Source: Alphaproteobacteria bacterium
Lineage (GTDB): Bacteria; Pseudomonadota; Alphaproteobacteria; Micropepsales; Micropepsaceae
Reading direction: 5' to 3'
Length of the DNA stretch: 33,172 nucleotides
NCBI GenBank assembly: GCA_028865545.1
Contig: JAGWJY010000036.1
Span: 1 to 33,172 of the forward strand
In this document: piece by piece, positions 3,421-32,913 of the stretch
Numbering within the stretch: the first letter of the stretch is position 1
Layout: every line of letters begins with the position of its first letter
Notes under the pieces: generated by a model
Told to the model about the DNA's origin: nothing
The model's input: only the letters and a program-made list of their open reading frames with translations
Databases searched by the model: none
Made by a program: the position numbers and the translations under genes

Positions 3421-3452
3421 AAAGGCCGGGAGCCGCGCTTCCGGCCTTTTTC
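3421..3452 (+). terminator. Strong rho-independent terminator, probably bidirectional
   Basis: A perfect 9-base stem AAAGGCCGG / CCGGCCTTT (3421-3429 with 3441-3449) encloses an 11-base loop and is followed by a T-run on the plus strand. It lies between the tiny ORF and the convergent YwaF-like gene, whose stop codon is at 3451-3453, so it can end transcription from both sides. Confidence 0.85.
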
Positions 3453-4173
3453 ACGACCGGCGCGCGCGAAAGCCACGCACCCGATCGATCAGGAAGAACG
3501 GCGCGTAATAGATCGCCATCGAAAGCACCCCCAGAACCACAAGCACCGGCAGGTAGTAGGGCCAAGCCGGCATCAGATCGAACAGGCTCGGATAGATCGG
3601 CTTGGACCGCAGAAAGCCGTAATCGACGCCCAGTGCCCAATCGACTGCGCCGGCCGCGGCCATATAGAAAAGCGTCCAGGCGATGACCCGCGGAAACGAA
3701 GACGGGTAAGGGCGCATTTTCATGCCGACCGTCAGGAACAACACCGAGGCGATGATGCCGCCGTGGAAGACCGAGAACTCGACGAAGCGGGGATCGGGGA
3801 AGTCAAAGGGAATGCCGGGTCTCAGTATGCCCTGCACCGTGCCGGCCAAGGCCCAGAAATAAGCGAGCTCGTAGCTCTTCTGGTTGGGCCAGATCAGGGT
3901 CACCACCGTGGCGATGCAGGCCCAACTGCACAGATCCATCGGCAAGGCATTGCCGATATCCAGCCAGCCATTCTGTGTGGCTATCATGTACCAGTAGGCC
4001 CAGGCGCCGAGGATCGCGGCGGCAAACACCCAACAGATGCTGCGCTCCAGCGTCCGGCTATCGGCTAGGCGCGCGAGGACAGACAGCAGCAACGGCACGG
4101 CCACCGTAAGAGCCAGCACGATCTGATGCGATCGGCCGAACAGCACGAAGGGCTGGAAAGTTTCATGGGACAT
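3451..4173 (-). CDS. YwaF/TIGR02206-type integral membrane protein
   Basis: A 240-residue protein made almost wholly of hydrophobic helices (six or more). Early residues FGRSHQIVLALTVAVPLLL, the conserved GNALPMDLCSW and the PDPRF/FHGGIIASV region match the TIGR02206 (YwaF-like) membrane protein family. The function of that family is unknown. It is a single gene with no partner on its strand. The 3' end abuts the shared terminator at 3421-3452. Confidence 0.8.
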   Translation of the reverse strand: MSHETFQPFVLFGRSHQIVLALTVAVPLLLSVLARLADSRTLERSICWVFAAAILGAWAYWYMIATQNGWLDIGNALPMDLCSWACIATVVTLIWPNQKSYELAYFWALAGTVQGILRPGIPFDFPDPRFVEFSVFHGGIIASVLFLTVGMKMRPYPSSFPRVIAWTLFYMAAAGAVDWALGVDYGFLRSKPIYPSLFDLMPAWPYYLPVLVVLGVLSMAIYYAPFFLIDRVRGFRARRS

Positions 4174-11423: not shown

Positions 11424-12116
11424 TTAGTTCTGCGTCACCCGCACCGGCTTCTCCGCATAGAACTGCGGATAGAGGTGCTTCAACTTGGCGATCTTGGGCA
11501 AATCGTTGATCACAATATAAGGCTGGTAGGGATGGAGGATCAGGTAGTCCTGATGATAGGCCTCCGCCGGATAGAAGCCATGTAACGCACCGATCTGGGT
11601 GACGATGGGCGCCGAGAACACTTGCGCCTTGCTTAGTTGCGCGACATAGGCCTTGGCAATACGCAGCTGATCCGGGTTCGCGTAGAATATCTCCGAACGA
11701 TACTGGGTACCTTCGTCCGGGCCTTGATAGTCGAGCGTCGTGGGATCCATCACCGAAAAGTAGATGCGCAAAATCTGTCCGTAGGAAACGATCTTAGGAT
11801 CGAACACGATCTGCACGGATTCGGCGTTACCGGTTGTTCCGCTGCCGACCTCTTCATAATGTGCCGTATCGCGCGCGCCGCCGGAATAGCCGGCCAACAC
11901 CTGCTTGACGCCCTTCACATGCTGGAAAACGCCTTGCATGCCCCAAAAGCAACCGCCGGCCAGTACGGCCGTTTCGCTGGGCTGTGCCGGCTCATTGTCG
12001 ACCATCGGTGACGGCAAGACATTCGCGGTCTCGTCGGCAACGGATGGGCTAGCGCACATGGCCAATAACGCTGCGACTGCAAGCGGTCGGATAATCCCGG
12101 TCATCATTTTCTCCAT
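11424..12116 (-). CDS. msrA: Exported peptide methionine-(S)-sulfoxide reductase MsrA
   Basis: A 230-residue enzyme that reduces methionine-S-sulfoxide in proteins. The catalytic motif GCFWGM places the active cysteine at residue 56, followed by GYSGG and the family's EEVGSGTTGNAESV segment. The N-terminus (GIIRPLAVAALLAMCASPSVA) is a Sec signal peptide, so the enzyme acts in the periplasm. The chosen ATG overlaps the msrB stop by one base (TGATG), a translational-coupling arrangement. A second ATG four codons later (12104) sits at better spacing from GGAG and may be the real start. The gene is the second of an msrB-msrA operon. Confidence 0.93.
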   Translation of the reverse strand: MEKMMTGIIRPLAVAALLAMCASPSVADETANVLPSPMVDNEPAQPSETAVLAGGCFWGMQGVFQHVKGVKQVLAGYSGGARDTAHYEEVGSGTTGNAESVQIVFDPKIVSYGQILRIYFSVMDPTTLDYQGPDEGTQYRSEIFYANPDQLRIAKAYVAQLSKAQVFSAPIVTQIGALHGFYPAEAYHQDYLILHPYQPYIVINDLPKIAKLKHLYPQFYAEKPVRVTQN

Positions 12117-12664
12117 CAAGATGCCGCACGCGGCACGAATTTGAGCGCCGCGGAGTTCATGCAGTAGCGAAGCCCGGTGGGTCTGGGCCCATCGTCGAAG
12201 ACATGCCCCAGATGCGCATCGCAGCGCACGCAGGACACCGCCGTGCGGTCCATGAAAAAGCTGGTGTCGTGCATTTCCCCGACGTTTATCTTGGCGATCG
12301 GCTGCCAGAAGCTAGGCCAGCCCGTTCCAGACTCGAATTTCGTTTTCGAGTCGAACAACGCCGTGTCGCAGCAGATGCAACGGTAGAGCCCATCGGCGTG
12401 ATTGTTCCAGTAGATACCGGTGAACGCCTGCTCGGTCCCGGCGCGACGCGTGACGTCAAATTGCTCGGGCGACAGCAATTGGCGCCATTCCGCATCGGTT
12501 TTGACGATTTTCGGCACGCGCTGCGTTCCCAGGCTTTTACCCGATGGCGCAAAAAGCGCGATCAGGACCAGTTGCGATGCGACGGCGGGGAAAGACCACG
12601 TACCAAGTGTGGCTAAAGACGCGGCGGTCAGAAAATGGCGGCGCGTCGGCGATGGTGCGAGCAT
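12116..12664 (-). CDS. msrB: Exported peptide methionine-(R)-sulfoxide reductase MsrB
   Basis: A 182-residue enzyme reducing methionine-R-sulfoxide. Zinc-site pairs CICC (96-99) and CVRC (145-148) and the catalytic Cys168 in [11 protein letters not shown] are all present, with GWPSFW between. The ATG at 12664 follows AGAGGA; the open frame extends further up without support. The N-terminus has [10 protein letters not shown] at residues 7-16, a twin-arginine motif followed by a hydrophobic stretch, so export by the Tat route is likely. With the Sec-exported MsrA it forms a periplasmic repair pair. Cytoplasmic MsrA/MsrB normally lack such leaders. Confidence 0.93.
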
Positions 12665-12752
12665 GGCATCCTCTGCGAACGAACTTCCGAATGGCGATAC
12701 TGATAAGTTCGCGGCGGGATGCAAGCCGGTTACAGCCGACGCGACGGAATCT

Positions 12753-14054: not shown

Positions 14055-15146
14055 TCATCGTCGCGCCATGAATTCGGCGAGGACCGCGGCGACTCTGCGG
14101 TTGGCCGCTTCGGGACCTATGGTGAGCCGCAGGCAGTCGGATAGGCCGTAATTGGCGACGCCGCGCAGGATCAATCCACGCTCGCAAAGGAAGCGGTCTG
14201 CGTCCGCGGCTGTCTTGCCGGGCGTGCGCGGAAAGCGGATGAGGACGAAATTGCCGACACTGTCGCCCACCGTGAGACCCGCCGCGCGAACAGCGTCAGT
14301 TATCCAGCTGCGCCAGCGGTCATTGTGTTCGACGGAGCGGCGGACATGGTCCTGGTCCTCGAGAGCGGCGACAGCCGCGCACTGCGCCGGAACCGAAACA
14401 TTGAACGGGTCGCGGACACGATGAAGAACGTCAGCAATCGGCGCCGGACAATAGGCCCAGCCGACGCGCAGCCCCGCCAGCGCATAGACCTTCGAGAAAG
14501 TGCGCGTCATCACCACATTCGGGAAGCGCGCCACCATTGCCACGCCGTTCTCGTAATCGTTCTGCCGGACATACTCGGCGTAGGCCGCGTCAATCACCAA
14601 CAGCGTGTCTTCCGACAAGCCGGCGTGCAGCCGACCTACCTCGTCAGGAGTAAGATAGGTGCCCGTCGGGTTGTTCGGGTTTGCAAGATAGACGAGGCGC
14701 GTTCTTGGCGTCACGCGTGCCAGCATGGCGTCGACGTCGGCGCGATAGTTCGCTTCCGGTGCTGCGACCGGCACACAACTGTTGGACAGTGTCGCCAAGC
14801 GATAGACGATAAAGGCATATTCAGTGAACAACACCTCGTCACCGGGACGCAAATAGGCGTTCGCCAGCAGCGAGAGGATCTCGTTGGAGCCATTGCCGCA
14901 GACGATACGCGCCGGTTCCAGGCCGTGGGTCTCGCCGATTGTCTCGCGCAGCATCTGCGCCGAGCCCTCGGGATAGATCGCCATCAAACCGACCGCCTCC
15001 TCAAAAGCTTGCCGCGCCTTGGGACTGGGACCCAATGCGGACTCGTTGGAAGAAAGCTTGATCGAATCGGAAACGCCGGAAACGGCCGCACGTCCTCCAA
15101 CATAGGGCGCGATGTCGAGCACGCCCGGCTTGGGCGAGAGCGTCAT
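14055..15146 (-). CDS. HisC-like class I/II aminotransferase, probably aromatic
   Basis: A 363-residue PLP-dependent aminotransferase of the histidinol-phosphate family. Landmarks are LSSNES (31-36), the NPNNPTG motif (156-162), DAAY (186-189) and the PLP lysine K219 in TFSKVYALAGLRVGW. In many alphaproteobacteria HisC-like enzymes also act on phenylalanine, tyrosine or tryptophan. Here it is the last gene of an operon with iorA and iorB, starting 3 bases after the iorB end, and not with his genes. Making arylpyruvates for IorAB is therefore the likely job. That reading comes from context; the sequence alone cannot exclude histidinol-phosphate. Confidence 0.88.
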   Translation of the reverse strand: MTLSPKPGVLDIAPYVGGRAAVSGVSDSIKLSSNESALGPSPKARQAFEEAVGLMAIYPEGSAQMLRETIGETHGLEPARIVCGNGSNEILSLLANAYLRPGDEVLFTEYAFIVYRLATLSNSCVPVAAPEANYRADVDAMLARVTPRTRLVYLANPNNPTGTYLTPDEVGRLHAGLSEDTLLVIDAAYAEYVRQNDYENGVAMVARFPNVVMTRTFSKVYALAGLRVGWAYCPAPIADVLHRVRDPFNVSVPAQCAAVAALEDQDHVRRSVEHNDRWRSWITDAVRAAGLTVGDSVGNFVLIRFPRTPGKTAADADRFLCERGLILRGVANYGLSDCLRLTIGPEAANRRVAAVLAEFMARR

Positions 15147-15149
15147 CTT

Positions 15150-15746
15150 TTAATTCTCCCTTTCATGGTACGCCATGGCATTGCGGCCGGCACGATAGGC
15201 AGCGAGATTAAGGTCGATGAAACCTTCCTTGACCGTCGACGAGATCACCGTTTCCCAGTCGATGTGGCTCAGGTCAATCGCTTGCACCAGAGCGCCGAAC
15301 AGCACGACGTTCATGACGCGCGGATCGCCGATTTCGCCGGCGATGTCGACAGCCTTAATCGCCGTCGTGTCGACTTTTGATTTTAGCGTCTCGATGACGC
15401 CCTCGGGATAGGGCTGCTGGCCCGTCAGAATCGGCGCGGACGGGATATGATAATCGTTGACGATGACCTTGCCCTCAGGCTTGACAAATTCGAGCCAACG
15501 CAACGCTTCCATCGCTTCAAAGGAGACGAGCACGTCAACGCCGCCCTTACCGACAATCGGGGAATGGACAACATCGCCGTAGCGAACTTGAGTGCTGACG
15601 CTGCCGCCGCGCTGAGCCATGCCATGGACTTCGGCCATCTTCACATCGTGCCCGGCAGCGACGAGGCCCTTGGCAAGGATCGTAGTGACCAGAACCGTCC
15701 CCTGGCCGCCGACGCCGACAAGCATGAGGCTGGTCGTCTCAAGCAT
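15150..15746 (-). CDS. iorB: Indolepyruvate oxidoreductase subunit beta (IorB)
   Basis: A 198-residue gamma-type subunit of the 2-oxoacid:ferredoxin oxidoreductase superfamily. With IorA it converts arylpyruvates plus CoA to aryl-acetyl-CoA, CO2 and reduced ferredoxin. The N-terminus GVGGQGTVLVTTILAKGL and the segment VHGMAQRGGSVSTQVRYG are diagnostic. The ATG at 15746 lies inside the iorA end (8-base overlap), so the two subunits are translationally coupled. The aminotransferase gene follows at once. Confidence 0.92.
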   Translation of the reverse strand: MLETTSLMLVGVGGQGTVLVTTILAKGLVAAGHDVKMAEVHGMAQRGGSVSTQVRYGDVVHSPIVGKGGVDVLVSFEAMEALRWLEFVKPEGKVIVNDYHIPSAPILTGQQPYPEGVIETLKSKVDTTAIKAVDIAGEIGDPRVMNVVLFGALVQAIDLSHIDWETVISSTVKEGFIDLNLAAYRAGRNAMAYHEREN

Positions 15747-17535
15747 GCTGCAGTTCTCCGTTCACGACTGCGCTCCATTTGCAGACCTGCGCGCAGAGCC
15801 CGCAGCCGTTGCAAGTACTTGCATCAATGCTGGCCTTGTTGGTCAGGTGGTCGAAGGACAAGGCGGGGCAGCCCAGATTCAGGCAGCGCTCGCAGCCAGT
15901 GCAGTCTTCGGCTGCGACTGCCATATATTTGAATTTGTGAGCGTATTCGTCGCGTTCCTGGCGATCGAACGGTTTCAGAGTGCAGGGCCATTTGGTGACG
16001 ATCACCGACGGTTCGTCCAGACCGAAGGCCCAGGCGAGCGTATCCTGCAACTTGGGAAGATCCATCGGATTGACGACACGAACGTGATCGATGCCGATGG
16101 CACGCACCACGGCTTCAATATCTATTTCCTTTGTCGGCGCGCCCTGCAGTGTCGTGCCGCTGCCCGGGTTGTCCTGCTGACCGGTCATGCCGGTCGTCCG
16201 ATTGTCGAGAATGCAGGTGACCGTGTTCGAGCGGTTGTAGACGGTGTTGATCAGGGCTGGGATGCCGGTGTGGAAGAAGGTCGAGTCGCCGATGGTCGCC
16301 ACCACTCGCGTGCGCTCACCGAACTTGTTGAACACCTTCTGCGCACCGTGTGCCATGCTCGGCGCGGCACCCATGCAAATGCACAGGTCCAGGGCATCGA
16401 GCGGGTCGTTGCCGCCCAACGCATAACAGCCGATGTCGCCCGAGATGATGACATCATGCCGGCGCGCGATCTTGCCGAGTTCGTAGAAAAAGCCGCGATG
16501 CGGGCAGCCAGCGCAGAGCACCGGCGGTCGCGGCGGCACTGCACTGGCGGCGCATCGAATCACTGGAGCCTCGATGCCGAGCAGTGATTTTGCGACAACC
16601 GCCGGATCCAGCTCGTACATGTCAGGAATTTTGTCTTTGCCGATGCAAGAAATGCCAAGTTGCCGGACTTGGCTTTCAAGATAGGGGTCAAGTTCCTCGA
16701 TGACGTAGAGCATGTCGACACGCGAAGCAAAATCGCGGATTTTCTGTTTGGGCAACGGATGGGTGAAGCCGAGCTTAAGATACGACGCGGTGTCGCCGAA
16801 CACCTCGCGGGCATATTGGTAGCTGATGCCCGAGGTTATGACGCCGATTCTCTGACCGTTCCATTCGACGCGGTTGAATTCGCAGGTTTCGGAAAATTCG
16901 GCGAGCTTCTGCAGCTTCGTTTCAAGCCTGGCGCGCTGCCGCCGCGCGAGCGCTGGGACCAAGTTGAACTTTGTCATATCCAAGGGATAGAGACGGCGCG
17001 GCGCAATTGCTCTCTCGCCGAGTGTCACCAAGCTCTTGGAATGACAGATGCGCGTCGTTACGCGAAGCAGAACGGGCGCGTCGAAAGCCTCACTGATCTC
17101 GAATGCGGCCTTGACCATATCCTTCGCTTCCTGGCTGTCGCTGGGCTCCAGCATCGGGAGTTTCGCGAACGGCGCGTAGTGGCGATTGTCCTGTTCATTT
17201 TGCGAAGAATGAAGTCCCGGATCATCTGCGGAAACGAGCACCAAACCACCGTTGACACCCGAATAAGACGCGCTGAACAACGGATCCGCGGCAACATTGA
17301 CACCGACCATTTTCATTGCGGCAAGTGCGCGTGCACCGGCGATCGACGCGCCGATAGCGCTTTCGAGCGCGACCTTTTCGTTGGGCGACCATTCGGCGAT
17401 AACGTCGCCCTTGAAGATGGCCAAGTTCTCGAGGATTTCCGTGCTTGGCGTTCCTGGGTATCCGGCAGCATAGCACGCCCCGGCCTCATAGGCGCCGCGG
17501 GCGACCGCTTCGTTGCCCGACATCAAGCTACGCAT
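15739..17535 (-). CDS. iorA: Indolepyruvate oxidoreductase subunit alpha (IorA)
   Basis: A 598-residue catalytic subunit. The N-terminal pyrimidine-binding domain begins MSGNEAVARGAYEAG and AAGYPGTPSTEI. The thiamine-diphosphate domain shows GDIGCYALGG, CMGAAPSMAHG and GDSTFFHTGIPAL. The last ~55 residues carry two [4Fe-4S] sites: CTGCERCLNLGCP and CNGCGLCAQVCK. The length is normal for the family. The ATG at 17535 follows TGGAG at 7 bases; a second ATG four codons later is also possible. Ferredoxin-linked enzymes of this type are often oxygen-sensitive, so low-oxygen expression is plausible. It heads iorA-iorB-aminotransferase, with ptb- and buk-type genes upstream on the same strand. Confidence 0.95.
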   Translation of the reverse strand: MRSLMSGNEAVARGAYEAGACYAAGYPGTPSTEILENLAIFKGDVIAEWSPNEKVALESAIGASIAGARALAAMKMVGVNVAADPLFSASYSGVNGGLVLVSADDPGLHSSQNEQDNRHYAPFAKLPMLEPSDSQEAKDMVKAAFEISEAFDAPVLLRVTTRICHSKSLVTLGERAIAPRRLYPLDMTKFNLVPALARRQRARLETKLQKLAEFSETCEFNRVEWNGQRIGVITSGISYQYAREVFGDTASYLKLGFTHPLPKQKIRDFASRVDMLYVIEELDPYLESQVRQLGISCIGKDKIPDMYELDPAVVAKSLLGIEAPVIRCAASAVPPRPPVLCAGCPHRGFFYELGKIARRHDVIISGDIGCYALGGNDPLDALDLCICMGAAPSMAHGAQKVFNKFGERTRVVATIGDSTFFHTGIPALINTVYNRSNTVTCILDNRTTGMTGQQDNPGSGTTLQGAPTKEIDIEAVVRAIGIDHVRVVNPMDLPKLQDTLAWAFGLDEPSVIVTKWPCTLKPFDRQERDEYAHKFKYMAVAAEDCTGCERCLNLGCPALSFDHLTNKASIDASTCNGCGLCAQVCKWSAVVNGELQHA

Positions 17536-17834
17536 CTATACACTCCATCGGTACTAACGAGATCCAATCTAAAGACGGGTCGGTCGGTCTCGAATGCGAC
17601 GCAAGCATTCGCGGACTACGCACTCCCTGGCACCTCCCCGCAGAGGCTCGTTGCTTTTCTTGAGGCGAGGTCAGTGCGTAGAACATCGCCCGGCCGCCAT
17701 CTTGTCCGACTGAGCACTGGACCGCTTCGGAGTCGCCCAGCCTTTGTTTGCCGTTATCATCGCTCTCTGGCACAGGCCTTCCCAGCCTTTTTCATGCCCT
17801 TGCGGCGTTTGGTCCGAATTCCTCAACGGCAATA
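17536..17834. other. Gap between the kinase gene and iorA
   Basis: About 300 bases without a convincing gene. It may hold a separate promoter for iorA, so ptb-buk and iorA-iorB-aminotransferase could be two adjacent transcription units. I see no strong terminator and no clear -35/-10 pair. Confidence 0.4.
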
Positions 17835-18938
17835 TTATGCAGCGCATGTCGGTATTGTTGACAATTCGCAAACCGCCTCCTCGCCGCGCAGGACCCGCAA
17901 GACCCCTTCCGCCATGGCTTGGAGTTCGTCTTCGCCCGGATAGAGCACGACCGGCGCAATCCATCCGACGAATTCGCGCAGGCGCCCTACGAGCTTTTCT
18001 GAATGGGCCATACCGCCGGTAATGAGCAGGACGTCGAGCTTGCCGCCGAGCACGGCGGCCATCGCGCCGATTTCCTTGGCAATCTGATAGATCATGGCGT
18101 CGAAGACAGCAGCGGCCTTCGCATCTCCGGCCGTGATGCGGCGCTCAACCTCCGTAAGGTCTCTTGTACGCAGATAGGAGAACAGCCCGCCTTCGCCAAA
18201 GAGCCGGGTTTCGATCTCCTTTGCAGTGTACCGTCCTGAGAAGCAAAGGTTCACAAGCTGCATAGCCGGCACGCCACCGGCGCGATCCGGCGAAAAGGCG
18301 CCCTCTTCGCGCGAATTCGTCACGTCGATCATCCGGCCTGCTTCATGTGCGGAAACCGAAATCCCGCTCCCGAGATGCGCAACAATCAGGCGCAAAGACG
18401 CGTAGGATCGCCCTGTCTCCTTGGCGTACCGCTTGGCTACCGCTTTGGTATTGAGCGCGTGGGACAAGCATTGTCGCTCAAACAAACTGGTTCCAGAAAG
18501 ACGTGCCCTATCGGGCCATTCATCGACGGAGACCGGATCCACCACATAGGCCTGCGTGCCGGCAGCCATGGCTATGTTGTTCGCGAGAAACGCACCGATA
18601 TTGGAGGCGTGCTCGCCCCGCTCTGCCCGACCCAGTTCGTCGAGCATCACGCGGTTGACTCGGTAGGTGCCGCTTGGCAGCGGACGCAGCAGCCCTCCTC
18701 TGCCGACAACTCCCGCCAGTGACTTCAGGCTATGTCCCCGATCCTTTAGGTCACGCTCAATCAATGCCCTTCTGATCTCCTGCTGATCGAGGATGGGCCT
18801 CCCCTGGAATCTGTTCATCTCATCATCGTGGTGATGCAACGTTGCGACGTAGATCGCACGTTCATTGCAAAACAGGCCGATCTTGGTCGACGTGGAACCC
18901 GGATTGATCGCCAAAATTCTGCACTCAGCGGCTTCCAT
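17835..18938 (-). CDS. buk: Butyrate kinase family acyl kinase
   Basis: A 367-residue cytoplasmic enzyme of the acetate/butyrate kinase family, transferring phosphate from an acyl-phosphate to ADP. Landmarks are LAINPGSTSTKIG near the start, VVGRGGLL, PVSVDEWPDRARLSGTSLFERQCLSHALN, LIVAHLGSGISV, and LLITGGMAHS. Butyrate kinases, unlike acetate kinases, have the SxPDRARLSG-type region and this length. The ATG at 18938 overlaps the end of the upstream acyltransferase gene by 14 bases; an ATG eight codons earlier is possible. It is coupled to the Ptb-type gene and near iorAB, so the real acyl group may be an aryl-acetyl or branched-chain one. Confidence 0.9.
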   Translation of the reverse strand: MEAAECRILAINPGSTSTKIGLFCNERAIYVATLHHHDDEMNRFQGRPILDQQEIRRALIERDLKDRGHSLKSLAGVVGRGGLLRPLPSGTYRVNRVMLDELGRAERGEHASNIGAFLANNIAMAAGTQAYVVDPVSVDEWPDRARLSGTSLFERQCLSHALNTKAVAKRYAKETGRSYASLRLIVAHLGSGISVSAHEAGRMIDVTNSREEGAFSPDRAGGVPAMQLVNLCFSGRYTAKEIETRLFGEGGLFSYLRTRDLTEVERRITAGDAKAAAVFDAMIYQIAKEIGAMAAVLGGKLDVLLITGGMAHSEKLVGRLREFVGWIAPVVLYPGEDELQAMAEGVLRVLRGEEAVCELSTIPTCAA

Positions 18939-19842
18939 AGATGACCCCGAGCGCAATGGCATTGATCTTATCGTCCACGCTCTCGACGCGGGACGGAATG
19001 AGAATTGGCACCTTCGCGCCCACTACAACATGGGCGCACTGAGAGCCCGCAAAGTATTTCACGGCCTTGCCCAACAAGTTCCCAGCCTCGACAGTCGGGA
19101 CAACCATGCAATCCGCCTGACCCGCAACCGGGTTACGGATTCCCTTGGCCTCGGCCGCACTCGTCAGAAGGGCGTTGTCGAGCGCAAGTGGCCCAAAAAC
19201 ATCGGCCTCACCGAACCCTCCCCGCCGACCGAATTCGGTCAATGCCGCTGCCTCCGCCGTGGACGGAAGAGCTTCGGAAATGGATTCCGTGGCGCTCATC
19301 AAAGCAATCTTAGGTCTAGCAAACCCAAGGCAATGGAGTACTTCAATGGCGTTGTGAATGATTTTCTTCTTTTGATCTAAGTTCGGAGCGACGTTCAGAC
19401 CGCCGTCTGTAATGCCGATCAGCCGCTTTGTTCCCGAGAGGATGTCCTCGTAAAAGAGGATGTCGCTGAGCAGGCGACCACTTCGCAGACCTGCTTCCTC
19501 ATTTAGCAATGCGTGCAGCAGTGCATCCGTCCGGATGTGACCTTTCAAGATCAAGTCGGCACGCCCGCCACCTGCCATTTCTGCGGCGGCGACGGCTGGC
19601 TGATCCGTCGCGACAATCTCTGATCGGCGAATTAATTCATCCAACCCGCCTGCAGACGCCACACGCCGGATATTGGCATCGTCTCCAATCAACACGGGAT
19701 GGGCAAACCCAAGCTGCAATGCTTCCCAAACTGCTGCCAACGCAATGTCGTCGTCCGCCATTACGACGGCGACACGCTTCGGACCAAGTTTCCGCGCCCG
19801 CCGCCTTAATTCAGAGAAGGAGTGAATGGAGCGTGCTGACAT
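18925..19842 (-). CDS. ptb: Phosphate butyryltransferase family enzyme (Ptb-like)
   Basis: A 305-residue phosphate acyltransferase that swaps CoA for phosphate on an acyl-CoA. The PTA_PTB fold is seen in the features GRADLILKGHIRTDALLHALLN, ITDGGLNVAPNLDQKKKIIHNAIEV, PKIALMSATES, ADVFGPLALDNAL and the C-terminal VPTVEAGNLLGKAVKYFAG. The short length fits Ptb rather than the long Pta. The ATG at 19842 is preferred over a longer open frame that shows no family sequence. Overlap with the kinase gene indicates a coupled acyl-CoA to acyl-phosphate to acid pathway with ATP gain. Confidence 0.9.
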   Translation of the reverse strand: MSARSIHSFSELRRRARKLGPKRVAVVMADDDIALAAVWEALQLGFAHPVLIGDDANIRRVASAGGLDELIRRSEIVATDQPAVAAAEMAGGGRADLILKGHIRTDALLHALLNEEAGLRSGRLLSDILFYEDILSGTKRLIGITDGGLNVAPNLDQKKKIIHNAIEVLHCLGFARPKIALMSATESISEALPSTAEAAALTEFGRRGGFGEADVFGPLALDNALLTSAAEAKGIRNPVAGQADCMVVPTVEAGNLLGKAVKYFAGSQCAHVVVGAKVPILIPSRVESVDDKINAIALGVIYGSR

Positions 19843-20194
19843 AGATGCATGCCGCCATTTTTCTGGGTTGCCAGAAAGCATGCCACAGGTCGCGCAATAT
19901 CGACATAACCTCGCCAACCTACGATGCCCGCTGTGCGTCGCACGCAGACCCAGGCTTCCGCTGGTGCATATTTTTTTTCTTCAATCGACTCAATGGCAGC
20001 TTCCCGTTCGTTCCGCGACGCCGGCCGACAACGCATCTTTGTTTCCTCGACGAGGGCGTACGCACATGATCCATGGGGCCGCCTCCCATACCCCGTGCGA
20101 CAGTTTAGCCCGATGAAATTTCTCCTTGTGGCAAAGGAGTAAGCTCGTCCTCACGCAAAGAGCTTTTCCGTTTGGAAAGCCGAAGGGAGGAAAC
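19843..20194. other. Divergent regulatory region, ptb-type operon and gdhA
   Basis: About 350 bases with no supported gene. It must hold promoters for both directions. A perfect palindrome GTGCG-T-CGCAC is at 19933-19943 and a T8-run follows at about 19971. Near gdhA there are three successive small hairpins: CTCCTT/AAGGAG (20122-20139), AAGCTC/GAGCTT (20141-20165) and TTCC/GGAA just after. The last ends next to the gdhA ribosome binding site. This may be a structured leader; no known riboswitch class was recognised. Confidence 0.4.
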
Positions 20195-21598
20195 ATGACT
20201 GGTACGACTGTCACGCCACGCGGGGCCAAAGTTCCGCCAGGCGGCTATATCGACGACGTCATCAACCAAGTGAAGGCGAAAAATCCCGCGGAGCCTGAAT
20301 TCCATCAAGCGGTGCAGGAAGTACTGGATTCTCTGCGGCTCGTGCTGAAGAGACATCCCGAATATCAATCGGCACGTCTCCTCGAGCGGATCGTGGAACC
20401 AGAACGCGTCATCATGTTCCGCGTGCCATGGTTTGACGACCAAGGGAATATGCAGGTTAATCGCGGCTATCGCATCGAGATGAACAGCGCCATCGGTCCC
20501 TACAAGGGCGGTTTGCGCTTCCATCCCTCGGTCAATCTCGGCATCCTGAAATTCCTGGCATTCGAGCAGGTATTCAAAAACTCACTGACCACGCTGATGA
20601 TGGGCGGCGGCAAAGGAGGCTCGGATTTCGATCCCAAAGGTAAGAGCGATAATGAGGTGATGCGATTCTGCCAGAGTTTTATGAGCGAGCTGTGCCGACA
20701 TATCGGGCCGGATACCGATGTCCCCGCCGGCGATATCGGCGTCGGTGGCCGGGAGGTCGGCTTCCTGTTTGGACAATACAAACGCCTGAGGAACGAGTTC
20801 ACCGGCGTTCTGACCGGCAAGGGTCTGAACTGGGGCGGTTCCCTGATCCGTCCGGAAGCAACAGGATATGGCTGCGTGTATTTCGCGGCCGAGATGTTGA
20901 AGACCCGGAAGGACTCGCTTGACGGCAAACGTTGTCTCGTTTCCGGCAGCGGTAACGTCTCTCAGTACACGGTGCAGAAGTTGCTGGATCTGGGCGCGAA
21001 GCCGATCACGCTATCCGACTCCGGTGGCGGAATTTTCGATCCGGATGGCATCGACCGTGAGAAACTGGCGTGGGTCATGGAGCTCAAGAACACGCGTCGC
21101 GGCCGCATTCGTGAATACGCCGAGCATTTCAAGAGCGCCAGTTTTATGCCGAGCGACGCCGGGCTCGATCACAACCCGTTGTGGAGTATCAAGGCCGATT
21201 GCGCATTCCCGAGCGCCACGCAGAACGAAATCAACGAGAAGGACGCGGCCAACCTTATCAAGAACGGGATCAAGGTTGTTGCCGAGGGCGCAAACATGCC
21301 GAGTACGGCCGACGCCACGAAGATGTTCCTGGATGCGGGAATACTCTATGGGCCAGCCAAAGCCGCGAACGCAGGCGGCGTGGCGACATCCGGCCTCGAG
21401 ATGGCGCAAAACAGCATGCGGCTGAGCTGGACCCGAGAAGAAGTGGATAAGCGTCTGCAAGGCATCATGTCGTCCATCCACAACACGTGCTTCGAGACGG
21501 CAGAGACCTACGGCACTCCCGGAAATCTTGTGAACGGCGCCAATATCGGGGGCTTCCTCAAAGTCGCCAATGCCATGTTGGATCAGGGGCTGGTTTAG
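20195..21598 (+). CDS. gdhA: NADP-type glutamate dehydrogenase
   Basis: A 467-residue cytoplasmic hexameric-type glutamate dehydrogenase, interconverting 2-oxoglutarate plus ammonia and glutamate. Landmarks are PYKGGLRFHPSVN (102-114), the catalytic-lysine motif MMGGGKGGSDFDPKGK (Lys140), PAGDIGVGGREVGF, and the dinucleotide-binding GSGNVSQYTVQKLL. The length and the KGGSDFDPKG signature are those of the small NADP-dependent class. The ATG follows AAGGGAGGAAAC. It is transcribed away from the aromatic-amino-acid operon and could regenerate 2-oxoglutarate for, or supply glutamate to, that aminotransferase. A hairpin terminator (21640-21674) follows. Confidence 0.95.
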   Translation: MTGTTVTPRGAKVPPGGYIDDVINQVKAKNPAEPEFHQAVQEVLDSLRLVLKRHPEYQSARLLERIVEPERVIMFRVPWFDDQGNMQVNRGYRIEMNSAIGPYKGGLRFHPSVNLGILKFLAFEQVFKNSLTTLMMGGGKGGSDFDPKGKSDNEVMRFCQSFMSELCRHIGPDTDVPAGDIGVGGREVGFLFGQYKRLRNEFTGVLTGKGLNWGGSLIRPEATGYGCVYFAAEMLKTRKDSLDGKRCLVSGSGNVSQYTVQKLLDLGAKPITLSDSGGGIFDPDGIDREKLAWVMELKNTRRGRIREYAEHFKSASFMPSDAGLDHNPLWSIKADCAFPSATQNEINEKDAANLIKNGIKVVAEGANMPSTADATKMFLDAGILYGPAKAANAGGVATSGLEMAQNSMRLSWTREEVDKRLQGIMSSIHNTCFETAETYGTPGNLVNGANIGGFLKVANAMLDQGLV

Positions 21599-21639
21599 GT
21601 TCCCTATCCAATTTAGAGTCGCCATTCGAAGGTCAACAC

Positions 21640-21674
21640 GTGCGGAGCGGAGAAATTCCGCTCCGCACATTTTC
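21640..21674 (+). terminator. Hairpin between gdhA and the REC/ATP-grasp gene
   Basis: A perfect 12-base stem (21640-21651 with 21657-21668), loop GAAAT, then ATTTTC. It lies 42 bases after the gdhA stop and only about 15 bases before the next ATG. It probably terminates or attenuates gdhA transcripts while letting some pass to the next gene. Confidence 0.75.
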
Positions 21675-21689
21675 CCGACGGGCTCGCTC

Positions 21690-24665
21690 ATGGGCGCAGG
21701 GAAGCAGGCCGCGGAAACAGCAATCGATGCCGAGAGGCTTTTCGAGGGCTTCGAAGAGCTGGAGACGTTCAGGGTCCAGAACATCCTCCTGGTATCCAGC
21801 CTCTACGATTCCTTCATCCTGCGCGAAGACGGGCGGCTCAACGAACTGCTGATCGGCGAATCTCTGGAACTCAATATCCGCCACGTGCCAGGCGTCACCC
21901 ATGTCTCGAGCGGCGCAGAGGCATTGGCCCTCGCGACGTCACAGCCCCGATTCAACCTGATCGTCACGAATCTTCACTTGGGGGACATGGACGCGGCGGC
22001 GTTGGCGCATGAGGTCAAAAACGCCGGGCTCGACGTCCCTGTCGTCGTCCTTGCCTACGATTACCGCGAGGTCAAAGCCTTCGTCGCCCGCCACCCGGAC
22101 ACGGACATCGACCGGATATTTTTGTGGCAGGGCACGCCACGTATTCTGATCGCCATCGTCAAATACATAGAAGACAAGCGCAACGTCCTTCACGACACCG
22201 AGACCATGGGGGTGCCCGTCATCCTCGTGGTGGAGGACAACATCCGTTACTACTCTTCGTTCCTGCCGGTGATTTATACCGAGCTGATCACGCAGTCGCG
22301 CCGCGTCATCAGCGAAGGAATCAATATGGCTCACAAGCTATTGCGATTCCGCGCCCGCCCTAAGCTTTTGCTTTGCTCCGATTACGAAGAGGCGGTGCAG
22401 CAAGTGGAGACGTATCAGGGTTATTTGCTTGGGATCATGTCCGATGTGGAATTCCTGCGCGCCGGCGAGCTGCGCCCCAATGCCGGCTTCGAGCTGGCAC
22501 AGATGGTTCGCCAATTGGTACCTGACGTTCCGATCGTCCTGCAATCAAGCCAAGCGCAACACCGGGCACAGGCGCAGGCGGCAGGCTTCTCCTTTCTTCG
22601 CAAGGGTTCACCGACGCTGCTGGAAGACCTGCGGCGCATCCTCACGGAACAGTTCTCGCTCGGCGATTTCGTATTTCGCCTGCCGGACGGCACGGAAGTG
22701 GCACGGGCACGCGACCTGAACACGCTGGTAACGCTGCTGCACGAAGTACCGGCGGCGAGCCTTGCCTATCATGCCGAACGCAACCACTTTTCCCATTGGC
22801 TGATGGCAAGAACCGAGGCGGCGTTGGCGGAAAAGCTCAGGCCGCGAAAAGTGTCCGACTATGCCAACCTCGAGGATCTGCGTCGCAACATTCTGGATTC
22901 CATTGCCGAATATCGCCGTGAGCAGAGCGAAGTCCTTATCGGCGATTTCGCCCGTACGACGTTCAAGTCGACGGATGCCTTCTTCCTGCGGCTTGGCGGC
23001 GGTTCGCTGGGCGGCAAAGCACGCGGCTTGGCGTTTGTGCGTCATCTGTTGCACAAACAGAAAATTGCGCACAGATTTCCCGACATCAGAATCGCTGTGC
23101 CGCCATCACTGGTTTTGGCCACCGATCTGTTTGACGATTTCCTGCGAGAAAACGATCTTCTGGATTTTGCCCTGAACGGCGATGACGAATCGAAAATAGA
23201 AGGGCGCTTTCTGGCGGCCTCATTGCCGGGAAATCTTCAAGACGATCTGCGTAAATTTCTGGAAGAAGTTCGATACCCGCTCGCCGTTCGCTCTTCGAGC
23301 CTGCTGGAAGACTCACAATACCAGCCCTTTACCGGCGTATACGAGACCTTCATGCTGGCAAACCGGGACTGCGACATTGATGCTCGAACAGAACAGCTTA
23401 TGGAGGCGATCAAACGCGTATACGCATCGACCTTCAGCCAGCATGCCAAACAATATGTACGCGCTACGCCCTACCGCCTCGAAGAAGAGAAGATGGCGGT
23501 GATCGTGCAGCAGATGGTGGGCGCGGTGCACGGTCCAAGATTTTATCCGGACTTCTCCGGCGTGGTTCGATCACACAATTTCTACCCCATTTTGCCGATG
23601 ACGGCCGAGGATGGCATCGCGGCTGTGGCCCTGGGCCTTGGTCGAACGGTCATCGAGGGCGGAAAATGTCTGATGTTTTGCCCCCGCTACCCTCGCCACT
23701 TGGTGCAGTTCTCGTCGGTAGAAGATATGTTGGCAAACTCGCAGACGGCGTTCTGGGCTCTCGACCTTGCCCCGCAAAATCCTTGTTCCATGGCGGAATT
23801 GAGGGAGACGTCGTTCGGATTGAACGTGGCAGAGAACGACGGCACGTTGCATGCGTTGGGATCTACCTACTCGGCTGATAATAATGCCGTCTATGACGGT
23901 CTTGGCAGGACGGGGAGCAGAATCGTGAGCTTCGCCCCAATCCTTAAACACGAGATATTCCCTCTTGCCCCGATTCTCGACGAACTCATGAGTGTTGGCG
24001 CGGCCGCACTCGGACGCCCGGTGGAAATTGAATTCGCCGGACGGCTATCCCATGCGTCCGATGAGGCAGCCGAATTTGCATTTCTGCAGATCCGACCGCT
24101 GGCGCTGTCGCGCGAAGCTGAGGACGTTCGCATGGAAGATGTGGACTCCCATCAGCTCGTTTGCCAAAGCTTGAAGGTACTCGGGAATGGCAGGTTGGAG
24201 AACCTACGCGATGTTGTGGTGGTCGACTTCCATCGTTTCGAGCGCGCGCAAAGCCAACTCGTGGCCAAAGAGGTCGCGCGCTTGAACGCCAAGCTCAACG
24301 ATAGTGGCACGCCTTATATACTGATTGGCGTCGGCCGTTGGGGATCGAATGATCCTTGGCTCGGCATTCCGGTTGCCTGGGACCAAGTGTCGGGTGCCCG
24401 CGTGATCGTAGAGGCCGGATTTCGCGATCTTCGCGTCACGCCCTCCCAAGGCAGTCATTTTTTCCAGAACCTTACGGCATTTCAGGTCGGCTATTTCACC
24501 GTCAACCCAGACATCGGGGAAGGATTTGTCGATTGGGACTGGCTAAGCGCACAACCGGCGGAGGAGGAACGAGACTGTGTGCGTCACCTATGTTTCGATG
24601 CGCCATTCCTTGTTGTCATGAACGGCAAGGTAGGTCGCGGCCTGATATTCAAGCCGGAAGCGTAA
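21690..24665 (+). CDS. REC-REC-PEP/pyruvate-binding ATP-grasp protein
   Basis: A 991-residue protein. Residues about 31-160 are a receiver-like domain in which the phospho-acceptor position is Asn94 (IVTNLHL), so it is probably not phosphorylated. Residues about 175-310 are a second receiver domain (VILVVEDN at the start, likely acceptor Asp252 in GIMSDVEF, Lys304 in FLRKG). Residues about 430 to 800 form the N-terminal ATP-binding module of PEP synthase / pyruvate phosphate dikinase: GGSLGGKARGL (438-448), VRSSSLLED (533-541), FTGVYETF, and FLQIRPLAL. A conserved C-terminal region contains GVGRWGSNDPWLGIP and PSQGSHFFQNL. There is no phosphohistidine swivel domain and no PEP-binding barrel, so it cannot be a normal PEP synthase. 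Its role is unknown. The start is chosen at 21690; the frame is open farther upstream into gdhA. Confidence 0.85.
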   Translation: MGAGKQAAETAIDAERLFEGFEELETFRVQNILLVSSLYDSFILREDGRLNELLIGESLELNIRHVPGVTHVSSGAEALALATSQPRFNLIVTNLHLGDMDAAALAHEVKNAGLDVPVVVLAYDYREVKAFVARHPDTDIDRIFLWQGTPRILIAIVKYIEDKRNVLHDTETMGVPVILVVEDNIRYYSSFLPVIYTELITQSRRVISEGINMAHKLLRFRARPKLLLCSDYEEAVQQVETYQGYLLGIMSDVEFLRAGELRPNAGFELAQMVRQLVPDVPIVLQSSQAQHRAQAQAAGFSFLRKGSPTLLEDLRRILTEQFSLGDFVFRLPDGTEVARARDLNTLVTLLHEVPAASLAYHAERNHFSHWLMARTEAALAEKLRPRKVSDYANLEDLRRNILDSIAEYRREQSEVLIGDFARTTFKSTDAFFLRLGGGSLGGKARGLAFVRHLLHKQKIAHRFPDIRIAVPPSLVLATDLFDDFLRENDLLDFALNGDDESKIEGRFLAASLPGNLQDDLRKFLEEVRYPLAVRSSSLLEDSQYQPFTGVYETFMLANRDCDIDARTEQLMEAIKRVYASTFSQHAKQYVRATPYRLEEEKMAVIVQQMVGAVHGPRFYPDFSGVVRSHNFYPILPMTAEDGIAAVALGLGRTVIEGGKCLMFCPRYPRHLVQFSSVEDMLANSQTAFWALDLAPQNPCSMAELRETSFGLNVAENDGTLHALGSTYSADNNAVYDGLGRTGSRIVSFAPILKHEIFPLAPILDELMSVGAAALGRPVEIEFAGRLSHASDEAAEFAFLQIRPLALSREAEDVRMEDVDSHQLVCQSLKVLGNGRLENLRDVVVVDFHRFERAQSQLVAKEVARLNAKLNDSGTPYILIGVGRWGSNDPWLGIPVAWDQVSGARVIVEAGFRDLRVTPSQGSHFFQNLTAFQVGYFTVNPDIGEGFVDWDWLSAQPAEEERDCVRHLCFDAPFLVVMNGKVGRGLIFKPEA

Positions 24666-31869: not shown

Positions 31870-32913
31870 ATGCTACTGGTGGATAACATGTTGCAACAAA
31901 AGCAGTACAATGGCGCGGCGAGTAACACAACTAGGCTTTCCGGTGCGCGGCGGTCGCCTTCCACGAGTAAGGGCGGCGATTCGCGGGCAGCACTCGCAAG
32001 AATGGACGGCGCCTACTCCAAAAACACTATCCGCGCCTACCGGGCAGATTTTGCGATCTTTGAGGCTTGGTGCCGACAGCAGCGTCGGGCAGCCCTGCCC
32101 GCATCTCCAGAGACCGTGGCGGACTTTGTGCTAGCCCAAAGCGAAAGCGCGACGCCAGCTACTGTCAGCCGACGCCGCGCTTCGATCGCGAAAATTCACC
32201 GGCTATTGAAACTCGAAAATCCGGTGCGCACTGAGGAAGTCAATTTGGCCGCGCGAACGGTCTTCCGGCAGAAGGGCCGCCGGCAGGATCAAGCTCTCGG
32301 CCTCACCAGTGTGCTAAAGCAGAAGCTTATTTCCATCTGCGCCGACGACCTGTATGGGCTGCGGGACCGCGCCTTGATCGCCGTCGGCTATGACACGCTC
32401 TGCCGTCGTGCCGAACTCGTCCAGCTGCAAATCGACGACCTCACGATCAAGCCAGATGGTTCAGGCACCATTCTCGTACGTAAGTCGAAGGCTGATCAAT
32501 TTGGTGATGGACGGCTTGCATACGTATCGGGCGAAACACTTGGATATCTGCGGAATTGGCTTCGTGCCGCAGATCTGAGCAATGGACCGATCTTTCGCAA
32601 CATCCACAGCATGAGCGCGACACCTGGCGCCCTACATCACTACTCCGTCGTCCGCGTGCTCAAAGATCGTGCGAAAGCAGCCGGTCTTGACGGTTCCGTT
32701 GTGGCAAAACTTTCAGGGCATTCCATGCGCGTCGGCGCTGCTCAGGATCTGGCGGCGGCCGGTATCGACCTTGGGGCCATCATGCATGCCGGAGGCTGGA
32801 AAACACCCGACATGGTGATGCGGTACATCGAGCATATGGATGTTGGAAAATCGGGGATGGCGAGATTGTATGCCGTATTGCCATCGAAAGGTGATCGGCG
32901 CCAATCATTCTAA
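31870..32913 (+). CDS. Tyrosine site-specific recombinase (integrase)
   Basis: A 347-residue phage-type integrase/recombinase. An N-terminal SAM-like DNA-binding domain begins near SKNTIRAYRADFAIFEAWC. The catalytic set is present: Arg179 in CRRAEL, a lysine in the VRKSKAD hairpin (205 or 207), HSMR (His284, Arg287), Trp310 in HAGGWKT in place of the second histidine, and the nucleophile Tyr319 in MRYIEH. The ATG at 31870 lies only ten bases after TATAAT, so it may be leaderless; an ATG at 31888 after GGTGGAT is an alternative. Paired with the divergent XRE gene, it is probably the recombination module of an integrated element or a plasmid-type resolvase. No attachment site was found. Confidence 0.9.
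   Translation: MLLVDNMLQQKQYNGAASNTTRLSGARRSPSTSKGGDSRAALARMDGAYSKNTIRAYRADFAIFEAWCRQQRRAALPASPETVADFVLAQSESATPATVSRRRASIAKIHRLLKLENPVRTEEVNLAARTVFRQKGRRQDQALGLTSVLKQKLISICADDLYGLRDRALIAVGYDTLCRRAELVQLQIDDLTIKPDGSGTILVRKSKADQFGDGRLAYVSGETLGYLRNWLRAADLSNGPIFRNIHSMSATPGALHHYSVVRVLKDRAKAAGLDGSVVAKLSGHSMRVGAAQDLAAAGIDLGAIMHAGGWKTPDMVMRYIEHMDVGKSGMARLYAVLPSKGDRRQSF

Follow-up and report, generated by a model that had tools for sequence, protein, structure and literature searches.

What might an alphaproteobacterium do with genes for an indolepyruvate ferredoxin oxidoreductase (IOR), a phosphate acyl-transferase (Ptb), an acyl kinase (Buk) and an aminotransferase, and do these genes belong together? 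The question is raised by the window, by which we mean the whole 33,172-nucleotide stretch of DNA analyzed here, where such genes lie on the minus strand. On balance, we consider it somewhat probable that the five genes constitute one operon that turns aromatic amino acids into arylacetates with a gain of ATP, a Stickland-type oxidative branch that was horizontally founded and locally completed.

Gene layout and conservation of the locus

An earlier note on this DNA placed ptb, buk, iorA, iorB and a gene for a HisC-type aminotransferase on the minus strand, with gdhA divergent from them; family models and open reading frames confirmed these identities and positions (Table 1). IorA, IorB, Buk, HisC and GdhA all score above curated NCBIfam cut-offs, and Ptb and Buk are above the Pfam cut-offs as well (PF01515, cut-off 24; PF00871, 57.1 bits). 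IorA matches PF02775, PF01855 and Fer4 models (TPP domain), and its C-terminus, read directly, carries cysteine motifs for two 4Fe-4S clusters. Ptb reaches the cut-off of none of its 10 matching NCBIfam models (best NF006045, 266.6 of 282), scoring 248.6 against 410.5 for phosphate butyryltransferase (TIGR02706) and 122 against 475.2 for branched_ptb (TIGR02709), which we count against the proposed reading. Relatives in the PDB are 7vg9 (a phosphate butyryltransferase), 3tng and 1yco for Ptb and butyrate kinase 2 (1x9j/1saz) for Buk. The buk start is an ATG internal to the listed reading frame, the ptb frame is open as far as 19917, and gdhA probably starts at the ATG at 20195.

Table 1 Features of the operon and its divergent neighbor, in window positions
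Feature	Position	Strand	Evidence
hisC-type PLP aminotransferase	14055..15146	-	TIGR01141 296.1 bits, cut-off 276.6
iorB, beta subunit	15150..15746	-	NF005325 250.4 bits, cut-off 230; PF01558
iorA, indolepyruvate (arylpyruvate) ferredoxin oxidoreductase alpha subunit	15739..17535	-	TIGR03336 706.8 bits, cut-off 650.9
spacer buk/iorA, 299 nt, apparently non-coding	17536..17834	-	no Rfam match; fold z-score 0.33
buk, butyrate-kinase-family acyl kinase	17835..18938	-	TIGR02707 454.9 bits, cut-off 289.1
ptb, Ptb/Pta-family phosphate acyl-transferase, first gene of the operon	18925..19842	-	PF01515 118.4 bits
gdhA ORF, divergent	20126..21598	+	NF006929 754.2 bits, cut-off 536

Read from ptb to hisC, the junctions in the window measure -14, +299, -8 and +3 nt. 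The distances of 14, 8 and 3 nt reported earlier are exact; the overlaps claimed at three ends are not, since just two of the four junctions overlap. The 299-nt gap between the ptb-buk and iorAB-hisC halves had been omitted.

That the two halves nevertheless form a single operon is indicated by related loci. The order ptb-buk-iorA-iorB-hisC is repeated in loci L052 and L053, and in L051 and L055 as far as their contigs extend, so the view of the genes as one locus holds. Junctions are -14, -8, -8 and -4 nt in L053 and -14, +11, -8 and -1 nt in L052 (where buk and iorA would be 5 nt apart with an upstream ATG as the iorA start); it is this overlap or close spacing of buk and iorA that joins ptb-buk and iorAB-hisC into one operon. 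Including the window, six alphaproteobacterial loci combine ptb-buk with iorAB, two of which (L054 and L061) are arranged differently. An Lrp/AsnC-type regulator gene follows buk in L054, which we count in favor of the proposed reading. In L054 and L061 an MFS gene separates iorAB from ptb-buk; it was considered as a further link and rejected, the two MFS proteins of the window being just ~22-25% identical to it. Across the class, the cut-off of the IOR_alpha model was exceeded in 4 of 385 genomes including this one; in the other three (G464, G528 and G639) IorA is 45-46% identical, and no match to ptb, buk or hisC was found in the 10-20 kb fetched.

The spacer has a shorter relative in L051 (168-204 nt, depending on start choice) and is absent from L052 and L053. 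It has no match in Rfam and a fold z-score of 0.33. A promoter scan returned one promoter-like site, at the buk end (shuffles 1.9). Terminator-like sites numbered 12, against 6.4 in shuffles (sd 3.2), and the spacer contains none; no weight was placed on either scan. The gap could mark a split of the operon in the window strain, and is counted against the proposed reading.

The divergent gene encodes, by its NCBIfam name, an NADP-specific glutamate dehydrogenase, and adjoins the operon in L052 and L053 also; no match was found in L051, in 6.8 kb upstream of ptb, nor in L054. Thus, gdhA is a divergent neighbor as described, yet not a constant companion, and at most a possible partner of the operon.

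The earlier note held that Ptb-Buk do not usually occur with iorAB. This proved wrong: in 27 of 80 IorA loci (22 Firmicutes, 5 alphaproteobacterial) both ptb and buk are found less than 6 kb from iorA and on its strand, the remainder having buk only (9), ptb only (2) or neither (42). A HisC-type aminotransferase gene lies within 6 kb of iorA in 16 of the 80 (12 Firmicutes, 3 alphaproteobacterial, 1 archaeal). Given this frequency, and the clusters published in PMC13285125, the description of the module as uncommon must be abandoned.

Ancestry of IorA and the aminotransferase

Alphaproteobacterial IorA sits with sequences from Sporomusa, Pelosinus and a Negativicutes MAG, both in a quick tree of 80 rows and in a careful tree of 34 of these rows (99/92 in the latter), although a clade of the eight Negativicutes IorA that excludes the alphaproteobacterial ones survives testing at the 5% level (p-AU 0.087). 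This grouping with Sporomusaceae-type Firmicutes suggests horizontal transfer.

The aminotransferase has a different history. The operon copy is not the only HisC of the genome: a second, on contig C48, is 73% identical. In the tree, the alphaproteobacterial operon copies form a clade (99/96) within the native HisC of the genus and far from Firmicutes enzymes, from which it follows that hisC was attached separately. By its sequence relationships, then, the operon aminotransferase arose by duplication of the HisC native to this lineage. The C48 gene adjoins a prephenate/arogenate dehydrogenase gene, an arrangement seen in 18 of 25 sampled HisC loci and, within the genus, in 13 of 15; this association fits aromatic substrates.

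Predicted chemistry and its alternatives

In the predicted route, the aminotransferase would convert phenylalanine, tyrosine or tryptophan to an arylpyruvate, which IorAB would decarboxylate oxidatively, releasing CO2, reducing ferredoxin and leaving arylacetyl-CoA. Ptb would then exchange CoA for phosphate, and Buk would pass the phosphate to ADP, yielding ATP and phenylacetate, 4-hydroxyphenylacetate or indoleacetate. Aryl specificity of Ptb and Buk, this direction of flux and a sink for the ferredoxin are presumed; expression and use of the operon would probably come when oxygen is limited. A chemically continuous route from amino acid to arylacetate and ATP, as first proposed, remains the best reading and has biochemical precedent: a 2026 paper reports IOR clusters of this sort and arylacetate activity for a kinase encoded next to the C. 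difficile IOR, as well as for HpdJ/HpdK (PMC13285125). The archaeal arrangement, in which IOR is accompanied by an ADP-forming acyl-CoA synthetase, is not seen here: a Pfam scan of 22 window proteins matched no Acd-type ligase (PF13607).

The wider genome (95.7% complete) speaks in both directions. We count in favor its single Buk-family match, the window's own (six of eight candidates scored, with a query that picks up acetate-kinase-like proteins in other genomes), together with the lack of any match to PaaA/PaaC. Counted against is the picture of a host that is no obvious fermenter, with three COX1-family genes and no RnfC above cut-off.

The main alternative is that the Ptb-Buk pair, co-transcribed with iorAB, handles short or branched acyl groups (acetyl, propionyl, isobutyryl) or acyl groups in general, drawing on other acyl-CoAs, for instance those made by a PorAB-type enzyme encoded elsewhere or by a promiscuous IorAB. 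We regard this as unlikely, but it draws on several observations. The single Buk-family match is accompanied by a single Ptb-type match, yet the genome encodes a PorA/PorB-like pair elsewhere, along with a GltD-like protein. In a quick tree Ptb clusters with Pta-like proteins of Proteobacteria (98; 80/92 after pruning); its recruitment from native stock was itself considered and set aside, the 80/92 being obtained without three of the 44 rows (L182, L061 and L105) and a Negativicutes placement not being rejected (p-AU 0.31). Buk is similarly equivocal. Its score above the butyrate kinase cut-off cannot separate kinase classes, because several IOR-linked kinases pass TIGR02707 too. Alphaproteobacterial Buk joins the IOR-linked Buk of Negativicutes and Desulfosporosinus at 65/51 in a 53-row tree that excludes the fragments L059 and L061, and tests reject neither the Clostridia IOR-linked nor the VOR-linked Buk as its partners (p-AU 0.23-0.27, for groups chosen after the tree was seen, one of which contains L197, a Pelosinus Buk whose 13 kb of sequence lacks an IOR). 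At all eight positions that separate IOR-linked from VOR-linked Buk at the 70% level, the commonest alphaproteobacterial residue is the VOR-linked type, shared with Negativicutes-type IOR-linked Buk at 91, 133 and 165 and not at 170 and 286. The window Buk has an average identity of 0.489 with the nine Negativicutes-type IOR-linked Buk and of 0.492 with the nine main VOR-linked ones. The group-specific residues thus lean toward the branched-chain-linked (VOR-linked) group, and together with the weak 65/51 placement are counted against the arylacetate reading. Against the general acyl role stands linkage that is specific to iorAB, present in six alphaproteobacterial loci, two of them differently arranged, and recurring in 27 of the 80 IorA loci.

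Rather less probable is reverse use, whereby Buk/Ptb would spend ATP to activate arylacetates taken up by the cell, IorAB would carboxylate them reductively, and transamination would give aromatic amino acids. NADP-type glutamate dehydrogenases are often anabolic, and the neighboring gdhA is of this type; the aminotransferase, moreover, descends from a probably biosynthetic HisC. According to PMC13285125, the related Hpd pathway can run backward at each step, and a biosynthetic IOR is argued for methanogens and Bacteroides, although the Bacteroides partner is an AMP-forming ligase and not Ptb-Buk. The genome also retains a prephenate dehydratase match and the prephenate dehydrogenase beside the second HisC, so that arylacetate salvage is not obviously needed. 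That the aminotransferase is a histidine-biosynthesis HisC lying after iorB by chance is very improbable, for although it passes the TIGR01141 hisC cut-off, its near-copy adjoins prephenate dehydrogenase and the operon copies, a clade of their own, overlap or closely trail iorB in the window, L052, L053 and L055.

Known counterparts and significance

The IOR/Ptb/Buk trio is already known in fermenting Firmicutes, and novelty here lies mainly in the host and the mode of assembly. The Peptostreptococcales IOR clusters (C. difficile Cd2; PMC13285125) likewise unite IOR with PF01515 and PF00871 enzymes and have the same predicted chemistry; the window differs in its alphaproteobacterial host with COX1-family genes, its duplicated native HisC, its order ptb-buk-iorAB-hisC and its divergent Ptb. 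The same source describes the tyrosine pathway of Clostridium scatologenes (HpdDEFG-HpdJ-HpdK), which shares an arylpyruvate:ferredoxin oxidoreductase, a phosphate arylacetyl transferase and an arylacetate kinase and also yields ATP and reduced ferredoxin; in place of IorAB, however, it has HpdDEFG, a VOR-like enzyme of four subunits, and it is associated with 4-hydroxyphenylacetate decarboxylase. The nearest IorA relatives outside the Alphaproteobacteria include that of Sporomusa, and the loci of Sporomusa malonica/Sporomusaceae (L057 and L119) place iorAB beside buk and ptb, but in the order buk-ptb-iorA-iorB, with no HisC-type match within 6 kb, and with Ptb and Buk far less similar to the alphaproteobacterial ones than IorA is. 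Clostridial Ptb-Buk, of the same enzyme families, are linked to butyryl-CoA formation; in the window they are linked to iorAB instead. Our literature search of open PMC papers found none on this gene combination in Alphaproteobacteria, none on phenylacetate kinase, and, by title, nothing on Alphaproteobacteria among three papers on iorA/iorB and amino acid fermentation.

For Proteobacteria, arylpyruvate decarboxylase routes are the ones named in PMC13285125. We propose, more tentatively than the pathway itself, that a lineage of Alphaproteobacteria with respiratory-type oxidase genes may have combined an iorAB transferred from Sporomusaceae-like Firmicutes and a duplicated aromatic HisC into an ATP-yielding, ferredoxin-linked arylacetate route. 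This route would be distinct from the decarboxylase ones and would contain the only acyl-kinase pair for substrate-level phosphorylation detected in the genome. What is new is the host, since operons of this kind were already known from Firmicutes. If the reading is correct, the oxidative arylpyruvate pathway of anaerobic Firmicutes would work in Alphaproteobacteria too, and the operon would exemplify assembly from imported and home-made parts. It would also be a source of phenylacetate and of the auxin indoleacetate, perhaps in wetland soils, as the isolate names of two relatives, fen_915 and bog_930, may hint.

Organization of the locus and its spacer

The genes under study are listed in the table below. 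Their junctions (ptb/buk, buk/iorA, iorA/iorB and iorB/hisC) measure -14, +299, -8 and +3 nt, so that the spacings of 14, 8 and 3 in the earlier note were exact; its description left out the 299-nt gap separating the two halves.

Genes of the candidate pathway and the opposing gdhA in the window
Gene	Coordinates	Strand	Family assignment
ptb	18925-19842	minus	in PF01515; under NCBIfam cut-offs
buk	17835-18938	minus	over curated family cut-off
iorA	15739-17535	minus	over curated family cut-off
iorB	15150-15746	minus	over curated family cut-off
HisC-type aminotransferase	14055-15146	minus	over curated family cut-off
gdhA	20126-21598	plus, opposite to ptb-buk-iorAB-hisC	over curated family cut-off

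Four relatives found via IorA (L051, L052, L053 and L055) are titled Alphaproteobacteria and point to an alphaproteobacterial host for the window. In L051, ptb-buk is followed by a 204-nt spacer (168 with an upstream ATG) and iorA, the contig stopping within iorB. The window spacer (17536-17834) and that of L051 (8849-9052) are 79.6% identical over 181 aligned positions, a degree of conservation like that of the flanking genes (75-81%). The buk-iorA spacer lacks a coding appearance, folds no better than shuffles and has no Rfam match. The junctions are -14, +11, -8 and -1 in L052 and -14, -8, -8 and -4 in L053, where the ptb-buk half overlaps the iorAB half. The contig of L055 begins within iorA and retains iorB-hisC; Buk was not found in that genome, perhaps because the contig ends there. 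Two further loci, L054 (Acetobacteraceae) and L061 (Breoghania), are arranged iorAB-MFS-ptb-buk and gave no hisC match. The adjacency of ptb-buk and iorAB is kept among relatives, with differing gene order and extra genes.

The intervening MFS transporter genes of these two MAGs (L054 14205-15521; L061 6426-7712) are 57% identical. Within L061 3902-9629, a single in-frame stop breaks each of iorA and the MFS gene, and the matches to buk and ptb are split over two frames, reflecting either decay or sequencing errors. A second ptb-buk pair (L196) occurs in the Acetobacteraceae genome, its products grouping on long branches with the Ptb and Buk of Clostridia encoded near IOR genes.

Elsewhere in the window, a 1031-aa protein with DUF5752 and PPDK_N domains and a weak, sub-cut-off response-regulator match is encoded downstream of gdhA (21570-24665, plus); a homologue adjoins gdhA in L052 and L053 too. 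The window also encodes a TMEM164-family protein (3451-4173, minus; 131 bits, cut-off 25), side-by-side msrA (PMSR) and msrB (SelR) for methionine sulfoxide repair (11424-12724, minus) and, close to its end, a phage-type integrase (31870-32913, plus).

Distribution and origin of the parts

Scanning 84,980 species genomes for IorA with exact peptide patterns, we kept the best 80 of 115 relatives, which is not a census. Among these 80 loci, 27 (22 Firmicutes, five alphaproteobacterial) have both ptb and buk within 6 kb of iorA and on its strand, and the earlier claim that such a locus is uncommon is wrong; buk alone occurs in nine, ptb alone in two and neither in 42. When only the 46 loci flanked on each side by 5 kb or more are counted, the figures become 20, 6, 1 and 19. 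The order iorAB-ptb-aminotransferase-buk recurs in many Firmicutes loci. Same-strand gdhA within 6 kb of iorA was found in nine of the best 80, all Firmicutes; where complete, their products reach 183-199 bits with the window GdhA, compared with 934 and 930 bits for those of L052 and L053.

Within the window's lineage, the module is rare. IorA of this type occurs in two of 37 genus genomes (the window's own and G031), and the IOR_alpha cut-off is passed by 4 of 385 class genomes. Buk was matched over most of its length in only two of 299 phylum genomes, its own and G301.

In IorA trees, the six alphaproteobacterial sequences form a single clade (100) whose neighbours are Sporomusa, Pelosinus and a Negativicutes MAG, a grouping supported at 99/92 in the 34-row tree; an alternative with Negativicutes as their own clade could not be rejected at the 5% level (p-AU 0.087). 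The Buk tree gave alphaproteobacterial Buk no firm position, and tests on the Ptb tree likewise settled no origin. The aminotransferase is native to the lineage: its four operon copies cluster together (99/96) inside the HisC native to the genus (98/93 fork), and contig C48 of the window's genome carries another copy with 73% identity. Downstream of hisC on C48 comes a gene for prephenate/arogenate dehydrogenase (526.7 bits, cut-off 409); 18 of the 25 HisC loci inspected, and 13 of the 15 from this genus, show the same arrangement. The GC3 values of the operon genes, 0.61-0.74 with the minimum in ptb, gave no clear sign of recent transfer.

Proposed pathway and its weakest link

The HisC-type aminotransferase would convert an aromatic amino acid to an arylpyruvate, from which IorAB would form arylacetyl-CoA, CO2 and reduced ferredoxin; Ptb would then yield arylacetyl-phosphate, and Buk arylacetate and ATP. 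We infer all of these reactions for the window's organism. The earlier note saw the genes correctly and, its judgement of rarity aside, its pathway reading is probable. One published study reports the same chemistry for HpdDEFG/HpdJ/HpdK of Clostridium scatologenes, places many IOR- and VOR-cluster sequences near PF01515 and PF00871 genes or else an ADP-forming ligase, and finds that the IOR-linked kinase of C. difficile acts best on phenylacetate and hydroxyphenylacetate and less on indoleacetate (March 2026, PMC13285125). Another describes two gut strains that make indoleacetate and whose OFOR loci include homologues of Ptb, Buk and aminotransferases (2026, PMC13290082).

The weakest link is Ptb/Buk specificity. 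IOR-linked and VOR-linked Buk differ at eight positions (70% level), and the commonest alphaproteobacterial residue is the VOR-linked one at all eight. Negativicutes-type IOR-linked Buk share the VOR-linked residue at three of these and clearly differ from it at 170 and 286.

The reactions could also run in reverse, as aryl acid salvage; however, normal Phe and Tyr biosynthesis genes are present, which speaks against a need for it. A prephenate dehydratase match is present in the window's own genome (3.4 Mb, 101 contigs), as are three COX1-family genes and one Buk-family match (6 of 8 candidates scored); PaaA/PaaC had no match there and RnfC none over cut-off. On its contig C27 (L203 6182-18065), genes for NiFe hydrogenase components similar to sulfhydrogenase subunits, under NCBIfam cut-offs, occur with hypF and adjoin genes for PorA/PorB-like proteins and for a GltD-like protein whose end is PorD-like. 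It is tempting to speculate that these hydrogenase and Por-like proteins handle reduced ferredoxin.

The locus is a member of a known Firmicutes-type module in an unusual host.
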